Assembly: GCA_902517175.1 (NCBI GenBank)
Contig: CABYBM010000004.1
Span: forward strand, 1 to 51,430
From: an uncultured Pelagibacteraceae bacterium
Lineage (GTDB): Bacteria > Pseudomonadota > Alphaproteobacteria > Pelagibacterales > Pelagibacteraceae
DNA: 51,430 bases
Direction: 5' to 3'
A model generated the notes under the pieces. The model ran no database searches, was not told where the DNA came from, and was given only the letters and a program-made list of their open reading frames with translations. The translations under genes were made by a program, and so were the position numbers. Positions 32,698-50,246 of the stretch are shown here, one piece after another. Numbering within the stretch: the first letter of the stretch is position 1; each line of letters begins with the position of its first letter.

Positions 32698-33281
32698 TTA
32701 ATTTCTTCTAGGTACTCTTTGATTTTTTGAATAGGAAGACCCATTATAGTGTCTTTGTTCCCATTTATCTCTGAAAATAACTTTCTACCCTCGCCTTCTA
32801 TTTGATAAACGTTATAAGCATATAATGCGACGTCAGAGATCTTCGCTAAGTAATCTTCTAACTCTTTTTCAGTAAAATTTTTCATTTTAAGTTTGGCCCT
32901 ATCAGTATAATTCCAAGTCATCGATCCATTTTTTGAAATACAAACGGAGCTAATTAGGTGGTGTTCTTTTCCATTAAGCTTTTTTAATATCAATAGTGCC
33001 TCTTTTCTATCTTGTGGTTTAGAAATTAATTCACCCTCCAAATCGATTACGCTGTCTGCACCCAATACAAATTGCTCATGAACTTTTGAACTGACTTTAT
33101 TAGCTTTAAGTTCGGCCAAATTCTTCGAAATAATTTCAGGTGAAGCTTTTTCACTTAAAAGGCTTTGCTTTACCATGTCTTCATCAACATTGGACGGCTT
33201 TACATCACAAGATATATTATTTCTTTCTAAAATATCTTTTCTAACTTTGCTTTTTGATGCTAAAATTATATTATTTAACAT
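32694..33281 (-). CDS. maf: Maf family nucleotide pyrophosphatase
   Basis: 'NIILASKSKVRKDILER', 'VLGADSVIDLEGELISKPQDRKEALLILKKLNGKEHHLISS'. Confidence 0.94.
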   Translation of the reverse strand: MLNNIILASKSKVRKDILERNNISCDVKPSNVDEDMVKQSLLSEKASPEIISKNLAELKANKVSSKVHEQFVLGADSVIDLEGELISKPQDRKEALLILKKLNGKEHHLISSVCISKNGSMTWNYTDRAKLKMKNFTEKELEDYLAKISDVALYAYNVYQIEGEGRKLFSEINGNKDTIMGLPIQKIKEYLEEIK

Positions 33282-34098
33282 TATTAGAATATATTTCGTG
33301 TATTTTAATAATGGATGCAGCGGTTTCCTCCACTGATTTTCTAGTTACATCAATAACCGGCCACTTATACTTTTGAAAAGTTTTTTTTGCCTTTAAAACC
33401 TCGTCTTTAATATCATCAAGGTTAGTGTATTTTGTTGCATCGCTTTCTTTAAGTGAGTTCATTCTATTTTTTCTTAAATCAGCCAATCTTTCAGGTTCTG
33501 TGCTTAAACCGACGACACAGGTAAATTGTGGATCTTTTTTTAATTTCTCAGGTAAAGAATTTTCGTTAACCAAAGGAATGTTGGATGTTTTGAAACCTTT
33601 ATTTGCGAGATAAATAGAAGTTGGTGTTTTACTTGTTCTGCTTACTCCTACCAAGATAATATCTGATTTATCAATCTCATTTAATAAATTTCCATCATCG
33701 TGGTTCATTGTAAATTGAATTGCCTCTATCCTATCATAATATTCTTCATTTAAAATATGTTGTCCACTAGGTTCGTGTGAGGCTTTTTGATTAAGAATTT
33801 TTGAAAAATTCAGAATAAGGTTTCCCAAAACGCCGAAACATGGAATTTTTTTATCATTGCTAGTGTTAGCTAAGTATTTAGCAAGGTTGTTATCAACAAT
33901 TGTGTAAAGTATAATTGAATTATTAACTGTTTGCGCATCCTCCAAAATTTTCAAAATTTGGTTTTCTGTTCTAGTAAAAGAATAAGAATGAATTTTATAA
34001 TCAATATTTTTGAATTGTGCTTTTAATGCTAAAAAAATTCTCTCCAAGGTTTCGCCGGTAGAATCCGAGATTAAATATATTTGATATGTATTAATCAT
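33271..34098 (-). CDS. ppsR: Pyruvate, phosphate dikinase / PEP synthase regulatory protein (DUF299)
   Basis: 'IYLISDSTGETLERI', 'DIILVGVSRTSKTPTSIYLANKGFKTSNIPLV', 'VIDVTRKSVEETAASII'. Confidence 0.94.
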   Translation of the reverse strand: MINTYQIYLISDSTGETLERIFLALKAQFKNIDYKIHSYSFTRTENQILKILEDAQTVNNSIILYTIVDNNLAKYLANTSNDKKIPCFGVLGNLILNFSKILNQKASHEPSGQHILNEEYYDRIEAIQFTMNHDDGNLLNEIDKSDIILVGVSRTSKTPTSIYLANKGFKTSNIPLVNENSLPEKLKKDPQFTCVVGLSTEPERLADLRKNRMNSLKESDATKYTNLDDIKDEVLKAKKTFQKYKWPVIDVTRKSVEETAASIIKIHEIYSNNVK

Positions 34099-34370
34099 GG
34101 GTAAATTGTTAATAAATTTGTATTATTTTAATAAAATTACTCAATTTAATTTTTGTCTGTTTAGCCTTGTAAAATAAGGGTTTTATTAACATTAATAATA
34201 AATTCAATCTAACTATACATGAATGTTAATAAAGATCAAAAAATGCACATTTTTGAGAGTTTTATTTAATTATAGATGTGGTTAAAACGTTAATATAATG
34301 TTTAAAACAAACAATCTTCATAATCCACAGGACATAATACTAATACTATAATTATATATATAACCTTAAT
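34099..34370. other. oriC: Predicted chromosomal replication origin (oriC) between ppsR and hemE
   Basis: Largest non-coding interval in window, very AT-rich, at a strand switch; degenerate DnaA-box-like 9-mers (TAATCCACA 34321-34329; TTAACCACA on minus 34277-34285; weaker AAATGCACA 34241-34249); matches the Caulobacter/Rickettsia origin locus next to hemE. Confidence 0.65.
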
Positions 34371-41651: not shown

Positions 41652-42304
41652 TGGATCAAGAAATTATAAATTCTTACTCAAAACTTTCAGGGCTAAATGT
41701 TTCACGTGAAACATTTTCTGACTTTGAAAGCTATATATCAATGATCTTAGAAAAAAATCAAAAAATCAACTTAATTAGCAATAAAATAAATGAAAAAAAT
41801 GACATAATTGAGCGTCATATTGTTGATTCCGCTCAAATTATTGATATTGTTGACTTTAATAGCAATACAACTACAGATATAGGATCAGGGAGTGGCATGC
41901 CCGGTATAATCATAGCAATTTTACTTAAAAGCTTAAAAATGGATATAAAGGTCAAGCTTTATGAAAAAAGTTACCATAAAAGCCATTTTCTTAAAGAAGT
42001 CTCTACAAAATTAAATCTAAAAACAGAAATAATACAAAAAAATATTTTTGAAGAAAAAAAAATAGAAACAGGAACAATAATGTCTAGAGCATTTAAACCA
42101 ATGCCCGTAGTTTTAGATTTAGTGAATAAAAATTTTTCAAGTTTTTCAAATATAATTTTTTTTATGGGCAAGAGTGGAAGGGAAATTTTTCAAAATACTT
42201 TAAAGGATTGGGATTTAGATTATTCTGAAAAAAAAAGTCTAACTAGCAGAGAGTCTTTTTTAGTAAATGTAAAAAAAATTAAAAAAAAATTAAAAAAAAA
42301 CTAA
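41651..42304 (+). CDS. rsmG: 16S rRNA (guanine-N7) methyltransferase RsmG
   Basis: 'LNVSRETFSDFESY', 'KINLIS', 'RHIVDSAQI', 'DIGSGSGMPGIIIAI'. Confidence 0.95.
   Translation: MDQEIINSYSKLSGLNVSRETFSDFESYISMILEKNQKINLISNKINEKNDIIERHIVDSAQIIDIVDFNSNTTTDIGSGSGMPGIIIAILLKSLKMDIKVKLYEKSYHKSHFLKEVSTKLNLKTEIIQKNIFEEKKIETGTIMSRAFKPMPVVLDLVNKNFSSFSNIIFFMGKSGREIFQNTLKDWDLDYSEKKSLTSRESFLVNVKKIKKKLKKN
41698..41713. promoter_or_regulatory. parS: parS centromere site
   Basis: Perfect 16-bp palindrome TGTTTCACGTGAAACA, identical to the canonical ParB-binding consensus; inside rsmG, upstream of parAB. Confidence 0.96.
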
Positions 42305-43099
42305 ATGCAAATTATTTCAGTCATAAATCAAAAGGGTGGGGTTGGTAAAACAACTTCTGCAATTAACTTAGCAGCAGGCTTATCGCAACAGAACAAGAAA
42401 ATTCTAGTTTTAGACTTAGACCCACAGGGAAATGCAACCACAGGCCTTGGATTATCCAACATAGAAAATTCTTCAGAGACAATTTACGGTGTTCTTAATG
42501 GAACTAAAGAAATAAGTGATGTGATTAAAAGAACGAAGTTTGAAAATCTTGATATAATAACCTCTAACGTAGATTTATCTGGTATTGAGGTGGAGACGGC
42601 TGATGATAATAACAGAGCTTTCTTGTTAAAAGTAAAATTAACCTCGTATTTAAACAATTCTAGAGGTATATACGATTATATATTGATAGATTGTCCACCA
42701 TCTCTAAGCCTACTGACTGTAATGGCGCTGGTAAGCTCAAACTCACTTTTAGTCCCGCTTCAAACAGAATTTTTTGCTTTAGAGGGCTTAACACAGTTAA
42801 TGAAAACAATTGAGAGAATAAAGGTAAGTCTTAACCCTGAGTTGAGCATTAGAGGAATACTATTAACAATGTATGACAAACGAAATAAGCTTTCCTCTCA
42901 AGTTGAGAAAGAGGCTAGAGATTATTTTAATGAAAAAGTTTATTCAACAGTAATTCCTAGGAACGTTAGATTGTCGGAGGCACCTTCACACGGTATGCCA
43001 GTTCTAATATATGACAAGACCTGTCCAGGTAGTAAAGCATATTTTAGTTTTACAGATGAATTCTTAAATCAAGAGACAACAATGGGGAGCGCTGCTTAA
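42305..43099 (+). CDS. parA: Chromosome partitioning ATPase ParA (Soj)
   Basis: 'IISVINQKGGVGKTTSAINLAAGLS', 'LDLDPQGNATTGLG', 'DYILIDCPPSLSLLTVMAL'. Confidence 0.97.
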   Translation: MQIISVINQKGGVGKTTSAINLAAGLSQQNKKILVLDLDPQGNATTGLGLSNIENSSETIYGVLNGTKEISDVIKRTKFENLDIITSNVDLSGIEVETADDNNRAFLLKVKLTSYLNNSRGIYDYILIDCPPSLSLLTVMALVSSNSLLVPLQTEFFALEGLTQLMKTIERIKVSLNPELSIRGILLTMYDKRNKLSSQVEKEARDYFNEKVYSTVIPRNVRLSEAPSHGMPVLIYDKTCPGSKAYFSFTDEFLNQETTMGSAA

Positions 43100-43947
43100 T
43101 GGACTCTAATAAAATAAAAAAAGGACTAGGAAGAGGTTTGTCATCTCTTATTGGTGAAACTAAAATTGAAAGTCAAAAAAACAGACTATCAGTTAGTGTC
43201 CTTATACCTAATAAGTATCAACCTAGAAAAATATTTAATGAGGAAAATTTAAACGAACTTTCTAATTCAATTAGAGAAAGAGGAATTTTACAACCAATCA
43301 TAGTTCGAAAATCTAATGATGAACAATCTAAATTTGAAATAATCGCAGGAGAGAGAAGATGGCTTGCGGCTCAAAAGGCAGGTTTGCATGATGTGCCAGT
43401 GGTGATCACTGAAGCAGATGATTTAAAATCATTGGAATTCGCAATAGTCGAAAATGTTCAAAGACATGATTTAAATCCACTAGAGGAAGCACAGGGATAT
43501 AAAAAACTTATAGACGAATTTTCATATGATCAAGAAAAAGTCTCTAAATTTATTGGTAAAAGTCGCAGTTATATTGCTAACGCACTTAGACTTTTGTCTC
43601 TTCCAGATGATGTGGTTAAATTAATAGAAAAGCAAAAATTATCAGCTGGTCATGCAAAAATTTTAGTTGGATTAGAAAATGCTAGTTTTGTAGCTAGTAA
43701 GATAATTGAAAATAAACTTTCAGTAAGACAAGCTGAAAATTTTGTAAAATTATTTAAAAGAAAAAAACAAAAACACAGTAATACAAAGGATGCAAATATA
43801 ATGCATTTAGAAATGTCAATTGTGAATAAAGTTGGTCTTAATGTAGAAATTAAAAATAAAAAGAATAATAAAGGTCAAATTTCATTTGAATATAAAGATT
43901 TAGATCAATTAAATAAAATCATTGATATAATTAAATCTAATTACTAG
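43099..43947 (+). CDS. parB: Chromosome partitioning protein ParB (Spo0J)
   Basis: 'KGLGRGLSSLIGE', 'IPNKYQPRKIFNEENLNELSNSIRERGILQPIIVR', 'IIAGERRWLAAQKAGL', 'ENVQRHDLNPLEEAQGY'. Confidence 0.97.
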   Translation: MDSNKIKKGLGRGLSSLIGETKIESQKNRLSVSVLIPNKYQPRKIFNEENLNELSNSIRERGILQPIIVRKSNDEQSKFEIIAGERRWLAAQKAGLHDVPVVITEADDLKSLEFAIVENVQRHDLNPLEEAQGYKKLIDEFSYDQEKVSKFIGKSRSYIANALRLLSLPDDVVKLIEKQKLSAGHAKILVGLENASFVASKIIENKLSVRQAENFVKLFKRKKQKHSNTKDANIMHLEMSIVNKVGLNVEIKNKKNNKGQISFEYKDLDQLNKIIDIIKSNY

Positions 43948-48491: not shown

Positions 48492-48724
48492 AACATAAAG
48501 ATAATTAAATTTATTTTAATTTAAAAACTAAACATTCTATACATCAAATTAAAAAAATAGCTAAAATTTGGTGAATTACCTAGCTTTTTAAACTGTTGCA
48601 TATATACAACACTATAAGATTTTATTGAGATTTATTGATACATAAGAGAATTGTAAGCCTTTAATCTGATAAATAAGCAATGTTTATTATTAATAATTAA
48701 CATTAAATTAAAGGAGTAATTAAT

Positions 48725-49666
48725 ATGAACAAATTACAAAAAATAGGTGTGTCAGCATTAGCTGGTTCTCTTATGGCTGTTTCAGCAAACGCCTTAGAGA
48801 TGTCAGTATCTGGTAGCGCCGCTGTAACGTTCGCTGACTACGGTGGCGATGTTACTAACAACGCCTTTTCAGCTGCAGATGGTTTAACTTTCTCAGCTTC
48901 AGGTGAAACTGATGGTGGTCTAACTATAACTTCATCTATCGTGTTAGATAATGGTGTTAACGATGACCAGTCATTATCAATAGGTACAGCTGACATGGGA
49001 ACAGTTACTTTCCATGCTTTAGATGGATCTTCAGCTTTAGGTGCTGTTGATGATGTTATGCCTACTGCTTATGAAGAGCCATGGTTTGGTGTTACTACAC
49101 CTACTAAAGTAGATGGTAAATCAGGAGCAGGTATGTGGCAGTATACTTCAGCATCAATGGGTGGAGCAACTATAACTGCAACTTATCTACCTTCACTTGC
49201 AGCTGTAGCTAACTCACAAACATCGATAGCTGTTGCATTTAGCCCAGAGGCGGTTGATGGTTTAACTGTTGGTTATGCTCAACAAGAAGATGATTCTACA
49301 GCAGGTGCTGCTAATCAAGTTGATGATACAACTATGTACGTTAAGTATGTATATGGATCAATAACTGCAGGTATCCAAGATTCAGAAGGTGACAGTAATA
49401 CTGACTCAGCTGATATTGAATCTTTAGGTATTGGTGTTTCATACGCTGTATCAGATGAAATGTCTGTTTCATATGGTCAACACACTGTTGAGTTTCCAAA
49501 TGATTCAACTAAAACTGACCAAGAGTCAAGTGCTGTTTCAGCATCATACACTTCAGGTGGTATGACTCTTAGTGCAGTAGTAGGTTCAGTAGATAACCTA
49601 AATGGTTCTACTACTGCTGCTAACGATAAAGATACTTACGAGTTTTCTTTATCATTTGCATTCTAA
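48725..49666 (+). CDS. Gram-negative porin (outer-membrane beta-barrel)
   Basis: Signal peptide 'MNKLQKIGVSALAGSLMAVSANAL'; alternating beta-strand pattern; C-terminal aromatic 'YEFSLSFAF'; SD aaaggag upstream. Confidence 0.9.
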   Translation: MNKLQKIGVSALAGSLMAVSANALEMSVSGSAAVTFADYGGDVTNNAFSAADGLTFSASGETDGGLTITSSIVLDNGVNDDQSLSIGTADMGTVTFHALDGSSALGAVDDVMPTAYEEPWFGVTTPTKVDGKSGAGMWQYTSASMGGATITATYLPSLAAVANSQTSIAVAFSPEAVDGLTVGYAQQEDDSTAGAANQVDDTTMYVKYVYGSITAGIQDSEGDSNTDSADIESLGIGVSYAVSDEMSVSYGQHTVEFPNDSTKTDQESSAVSASYTSGGMTLSAVVGSVDNLNGSTTAANDKDTYEFSLSFAF

Positions 49667-49686: not shown

Positions 49687-49717
49687 TAAAAGGGCCCCTT
49701 TTTGGGGCCTTTTTTTT
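49687..49717 (+). terminator. Rho-independent terminator after porin
   Basis: aaaagGGCCCCtttttGGGGCCttttttt. Confidence 0.88.
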
Positions 49718-50246
49718 ATTCAAAAAAAGATATGCCAGCGAATGCAAAACAGTTTGCAAGCTTCAGTTTTTTAACATTTTTCTTAGAAATACCACCCAAA
49801 GCTACAGTTTTATTCTTTGATTGTTTATTAAGCAGTTTAAATTTATTAATACCCAAAAAGTTTTGATTTTTTTTAAATAACGATGACAAAAATATTTTTT
49901 TAACTTTTTGTCTTTGTTTTAATTTAATTTCCTTAAAATTGTGAGCTGATCCAATAATGTTAAAATTTTTCTTAAATGAATAGGATAGGTGACTTATACT
50001 CTTGTTAAATGATGGCAGGTAGGCTCCATCTAAATTTAATTTAATTGCTAATTTTACATTATTTGACAGATAAAATTTAATGGACTTTTTTTTACAATAT
50101 TTTTTTATTTTCAAAATTAACATCTCATCTACTCTTTTAGACGTATAGTTTCTAAAAATAATAGTTGTTTGTTTATCTTGTTTATCAATTATGTTTGTAT
50201 CAAATTTATTAATAAAGTAATATTTATTGATCATTACAAAATGCAT
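49716..50246 (-). CDS. Divergent thiamine-phosphate synthase-like protein (ThiE/TenI family)
   Basis: TIM-barrel-like traces: 'LNLDGAYLPS', 'NIIGSAHNFKEI', 'VALGGISKKNVKKL...CFAFAGISFF'; start 50246 or 50234. Confidence 0.65.
   Translation of the reverse strand: MHFVMINKYYFINKFDTNIIDKQDKQTTIIFRNYTSKRVDEMLILKIKKYCKKKSIKFYLSNNVKLAIKLNLDGAYLPSFNKSISHLSYSFKKNFNIIGSAHNFKEIKLKQRQKVKKIFLSSLFKKNQNFLGINKFKLLNKQSKNKTVALGGISKKNVKKLKLANCFAFAGISFFE

Follow-up and report, generated by a model that had tools for sequence, protein, structure and literature searches.

The intergenic region between ppsR and hemE as the very probable chromosomal replication origin of a SAR11 bacterium

In Caulobacter crescentus the chromosomal replication origin, Cori, has parS and the parAB genes nearby. 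This origin, which has been mapped experimentally, and the predicted origin of Rickettsia prowazekii are both flanked by hemE and by a gene of COG1806, the group (COG1806/DUF299) to which ppsR belongs (PMC1914354). Origins next to hemE, there with COG1253 on the other side, have also been predicted for Wolbachia and Ehrlichia (PMC1914354). These resemble the SAR11 locus described here in being hemE-anchored, AT-rich and part of a small alphaproteobacterial genome; they differ from it in having lost the COG1806 neighbour, which SAR11 retains, and in belonging to genomes which retain CtrA. In Escherichia coli oriC, neighbouring low-affinity DnaA sites which act cooperatively are 2 bp apart. For the basal unwinding system (BUS), described for Bacillus subtilis oriC together with predicted homologues, the criteria are a DnaA box with 0–2 mismatches, a spacer of 0–16 bp and at least three NAN trios (PMC8287927).

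SAR11 bacteria are among the most abundant cell groups in the ocean. A literature search for their origin found no paper describing it, and computed SAR11 entries are likely to exist in origin databases. The origin is commonly assumed to lie at dnaA: GRiD puts dnaA-bearing fragments at the origin, according to PMC7852909, and in a SAR11 genome paper dnaA is the starting point of the alignments (PMC12421898). The interest of the SAR11 origin lies mainly in the abundance of these cells, in the missing CtrA layer and in this assumption.

The window, by which the whole analysed stretch of 51,430 nucleotides is meant, is contig C4 of an assembly of an uncultured Pelagibacteraceae bacterium (817 kb in 52 contigs, 63% complete), in which dnaA is found on a different contig. 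A first-pass annotation had described the segment between the divergent genes ppsR (minus strand) and hemE (plus strand) as the largest intergenic gap, 272 bp long and AT-rich, and had taken it for oriC. Re-measurement, a check of the open reading frames and Pfam confirmed this description. The AT content is 80.5% as compared to 70.7% across the window, and rises to 89% near the hemE end, as would suit an unwinding element. A search of the gap for tRNAs and Rfam families yielded none. Pfam backs the identities of ppsR (Kinase-PPPase), maf, coaE and a dnaQ-like RNase_T exonuclease, and, on the other side of the gap, those of hemE (URO-D), hemH, rho, gidB, parA and parB. A stretch of 302 bp at 49867–50168, flagged as a larger gap by the open reading frame scan, was rejected, being spanned by a reading frame of 176 amino acids (49716–50246, minus strand). 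The longest genuine gap after that between ppsR and hemE measures 233 bp (48492–48724) and sits upstream of a porin-like secreted reading frame of 313 amino acids (48725–49666, plus strand). The features of the locus are as follows.

33271–34098, minus strand: ppsR (COG1806/DUF299 protein), left flank (Pfam)
34099–34370, no strand: intergenic region ppsR/hemE, almost certainly oriC; flanks kept in relatives
34107–34115, minus strand: weak DnaA-like box TTATTAACA at the ppsR end, a possible binding site; matching site in 25 of 30 genus loci
34183–34191, plus strand: weak DnaA-like box TTATTAACA, likewise a possible binding site; conserved in 26 of 30 genus loci
34277–34285, minus strand: array box 1, TTAACCACA; mean mismatch to TTATNNACA over 30 loci 0.87
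34288–34296, minus strand: array box 2, ATATTAACG, 11 bp from box 1; mean mismatch to TTATNNACA over 30 loci 1.03
34299–34307, minus strand: array box 3, TTTTAAACA, 11 bp from box 2; mean mismatch to TTATNNACA over 30 loci 0.73
34311–34319, plus strand: position at which the unwinding module has its upstream partner box in relatives, here degenerate (ACAATCTTC), from the alignment
34321–34329, plus strand: putative principal DnaA box, reading TAATCCACA here and TTATTCACA in the genus consensus, with CACA in 30 of 30
34330–34333, plus strand: spacer GGAC between box and trios, 4 bp, equal to the expected average of 4 bp (PMC8287927)
34334–34348, plus strand: five DnaA-trios, top strand ATA ATA CTA ATA CTA, lower strand 3'-TAT TAT GAT TAT GAT-5'
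34349–34370, no strand: AT-rich stretch after the trios, judged from its sequence the probable unwinding region, ending at the hemE start codon
34371–35372, plus strand: hemE (uroporphyrinogen decarboxylase), right flank (Pfam)
41698–41713, no strand: parS TGTTTCACGTGAAACA, a perfect palindrome (exact 16-mer) inside gidB, just upstream of parA-parB
42305–43947, plus strand: parA and parB, the partners of parS (Pfam)

A search for hemE over the family found the order ppsR (minus), gap, hemE (plus) in all 30 loci of the genus, with gaps of 261–284 bp and 80–88% AT. Most loci in other genera of the family keep this order as well. In other alphaproteobacterial families hemE faces ppsR in 27 of 28 ppsR loci, the gap there being 336–899 bp long, which agrees with the published location (PMC1914354) and with the statement of the first-pass annotation that the Caulobacter and Rickettsia origins lie beside hemE. 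The position between hemE and the COG1806 gene, the arrangement of these flanks, the AT-rich gap and the presence of several weak DnaA boxes are shared with Caulobacter Cori and the predicted Rickettsia origin, and the nearby parS/parAB is shared with Caulobacter. The SAR11 gap differs from these two in being shorter.

As the assembly is fragmentary and only 63% complete, the strand skew was computed on stretches of eight single-contig relatives. The raw cumulative GC skew gave a broad minimum around the gap, lying 28 kb to the left of it in one of two relatives and 32 kb to the right in the other. Since local gene orientation dominates the raw skew, the skew of third codon positions with strand correction was adopted, genes being classed as leading or lagging at every trial change point. 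Pooled over the eight genomes, the corrected change point between leading and lagging strand was placed 1 kb from the gap, at −1 kb. Log-likelihoods overstate certainty here, since neither codons nor orthologues are independent of one another, and a block bootstrap was therefore run; it gave a median of −1 kb with a 95% range of −17 to +42 kb. One of the eight genomes (G043) held no information after strand correction, and another (G040) taken alone peaked at −55 kb, its value at the gap being 2.4 units below that peak.

These values bear directly on the possibility that replication starts at dnaA and that the gap is merely a conserved divergent promoter. The gene lies about 62 kb from the gap on the hemE side, a distance which is constant in seven complete genomes of the genus, and the raw skew plateau stretches as far as dnaA; both facts would suit an origin there. 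The corrected change point excludes it: the position of dnaA was about 77 log-likelihood units worse than the pooled best change point, and none of 200 bootstrap replicates fell at 50 kb or beyond. Moreover, TTATNMACA is absent from the 400 bp upstream of dnaA, where one-mismatch boxes number one at most, and parS is found near the gap and not near dnaA. An origin at dnaA is thus extremely unlikely. A skew minimum elsewhere, for instance by dnaA, had been named beforehand as the observation that would speak against an origin in the gap; what was obtained is a raw plateau around the gap and a corrected change point beside it.

The single perfect parS palindrome lies 7.4 kb from the gap, close to parAB, as in origin-proximal ParABS segregation loci. 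In all nine complete relatives which have the exact site it is single-copy and located at most 20 kb from the gap, 7–10 kb away in the own genus and 17–20 kb away on the opposite side in three other genera. In G005, G009, G022 and G040 the site is found 17–20 kb off on the ppsR side, as compared to the hemE side in the own genus, so that a switch of the parAB block from one replichore to the other appears to have taken place between genera.

One-mismatch DnaA 9-mers occur 31 times in the whole window, and the two boxes in the gap are therefore weak evidence by number alone. They gain significance because they are conserved in register among relatives. The first-pass annotation had named two one-mismatch boxes, at 34321–34329 and on the minus strand at 34277–34285, and both proved to be present and to keep their positions in the 30 genus members. 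A third, weaker box which it placed at 34241–34249 has the sequence AAATGCACA as claimed and is not conserved in the genus alignment, so that a lack of conserved boxes, named as a further point against the origin, applies to this third box only. Its description of the boxes as degenerate has to be qualified: the genus consensus at 34321, TTATTCACA, is among the standard variants of the DnaA box, and all of 12 genomes have an intact RDHTT, the recognition motif of DnaA. In the loci L043–L070 the origin-proximal box drifts between genera from TTATTCACA to TATTAACA or ACTAACA with RDHTT unchanged. The count of TTATNMACA in the gap was the highest or tied highest among intergenic regions in nine of nine sets. 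Together with the conserved registers, this marks the gap as holding a DnaA box cluster which its relatives share.

The box at 34277 turned out to be the first unit of an array of three DnaA-like boxes on the minus strand, which start at 34277, 34288 and 34299 with an exact period of 11 bp and are conserved upstream of the unwinding module. Most other registers in the 30 genus loci have mean mismatches of 3–6 to TTATNNACA. This array, the unwinding module and the perfect parS had been absent from the first-pass annotation. Like the arrays of E. coli oriC, the array consists of 9-mer boxes of the same orientation separated by 2 bp; unlike E. coli oriC, it has only three boxes, and neither a flanking R1/R2/R4 frame nor a conserved IHF site was found around it.

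Beside hemE the 30 aligned genus gaps share a near-invariant block of box, GGAC spacer, triplets with a middle T and AT-rich DNA, the T on the top strand corresponding to an A on the lower strand. With one mismatch, a 4-bp spacer and five trios, the module of the window lies within the BUS limits given above. The box, the short GC-containing spacer averaging 4 bp, the repeated trios with a central A on the bound strand and the AT-rich DNA that follows are common to the B. subtilis BUS and its predicted homologues (PMC8287927, PMC6669920). The SAR11 module differs in being located at hemE and not at dnaA-dnaN, in mixing 3'-GAT-5' with 3'-TAT-5' trios and in having broken trios in some relatives. 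The partner position at 34311–34319 reads TAATCACC in most of the genus and TTAACCACA in another genus. The module of box, 4-bp spacer and five trios reached p = 0.005 in a shuffle test in the window, and its string occurs nowhere else in the own assembly. Loci were compared by anchored alignment; a degenerate family-wide DNA pattern was discarded since it was over-specified and missed the window itself. Trios persist across genera of the family, often as CTAATACTAATAC. A strict BUS search in other alphaproteobacteria gave, for some of them, possible trio strings (CTACTA) close to hemE.

Any divergent intergenic region holds two promoters, and the conserved region directly abuts the hemE start codon, so that the conserved elements might serve ppsR and hemE as divergent promoters or as regulatory sites, with no part in replication. 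The genus g9 (loci L067–L070, genomes G031, G060, G022 and G009) speaks against this. There hemE is absent from the locus and rho stands opposite ppsR, and the trio-bearing stretch still adjoins ppsR; a promoter of hemE would not be expected to remain once hemE has left. As the conserved motif also fits the box, spacer and trio rules, and as skew and parS point to the gap, a purely regulatory role is very improbable. Synteny, the corrected skew, the proximity of parS, the conserved unwinding module and the g9 locus all support the initial proposal, and the gap at 34099–34370 is almost certainly the chromosomal replication origin.

The way in which this origin would open is less certain. The strict shuffle test of the module was passed by 14 of the 30 genus gaps, in a few of them via a site elsewhere in the gap, and other gaps have one or two interrupted trios. 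The origin could lie in the gap with the trio-like repeat as a by-product of an AT-rich DUE, and opening, as in E. coli, would then depend mainly on the array with its 11-bp period. The interruption of trios in more than half of the genus, the low number of gaps passing the strict test and the better conservation of the array would all be in line with this. On the other hand, of the first four triplets three have a middle T at a frequency of 0.90–1.00 in the genus, the spacer does not vary, several genera share the string CTAATACTAATAC, and a conserved IHF consensus site as in E. coli is lacking. Opening by the array is therefore rather unlikely, and opening of the gap by the box-spacer-trio route is probable, as judged from the sequence pattern.

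By the box-spacer-trio route, DnaA-ATP would bind the box at 34321–34329, assisted by the three weaker minus-strand boxes acting as a cooperative array with 11-bp spacing (34277–34307) and by the outlying weak boxes. The DnaA filament would then grow over the 4-bp spacer, reach the lower-strand trios (34334–34348) and stretch this strand, so that the AT-rich DNA up to hemE melts. Helicase would be loaded at the melted DNA in both directions, and ParB on parS 7.4 kb away would organise and segregate the new origins.

Concerning the control of initiation, an orthologue of CtrA was sought in 11 complete Pelagibacteraceae genomes and was not found; the best SAR11 matches, all response regulators, did not exceed 35% identity. 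The query was a sequence which we take to be Caulobacter CtrA, and it was validated by proteins of 52–85% identity in eight of ten other alphaproteobacteria. CtrA sites of the form TTAA-N7-TTAA occur in the gaps at chance frequency (exact sites 0.37 observed and 0.23 expected, one-mismatch sites 2.93 and 2.92). GANTC is absent from 29 of the 30 genus gaps, and SAR11 is listed, in a sentence garbled in the source, as an exception to CcrM conservation (PMC3973325). The IHF consensus was found in only five of the 30 genus gaps, at differing places, and not in the window, so that no conserved site is present. In the missing CtrA gene, the lack of enrichment of CtrA sites, the missing GANTC and the missing IHF consensus the SAR11 locus departs from Caulobacter Cori and the Rickettsia origin. 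Pelagibacter has been reported to be without dif/Xer (PMC2731167), and dif was consequently dropped as a terminus marker.

By its address the origin is of the hemE/COG1806 type and is not a CtrA-controlled Cori, and the CtrA brake would be missing at the SAR11 origin. On balance we favour the view that this is a stripped-down origin: the ancestral address would have been kept, CtrA, its sites, GANTC and a recognisable IHF site would have gone, and a compact DnaA-only device would be left in which three boxes spaced by 11 bp feed one box-spacer-trio module, the box consensus having shifted between genera from TTATTCACA to TATTAACA with the DnaA recognition motif unchanged.

Anchoring the origin at dnaA would misplace it by about 62 kb in this case, and a defined element of 272 bp would allow coverage-based calculations of in situ growth rates to use the correct position. 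The SAR11 origin would also offer a natural, CtrA-free test of the minimal needs of an alphaproteobacterial origin.
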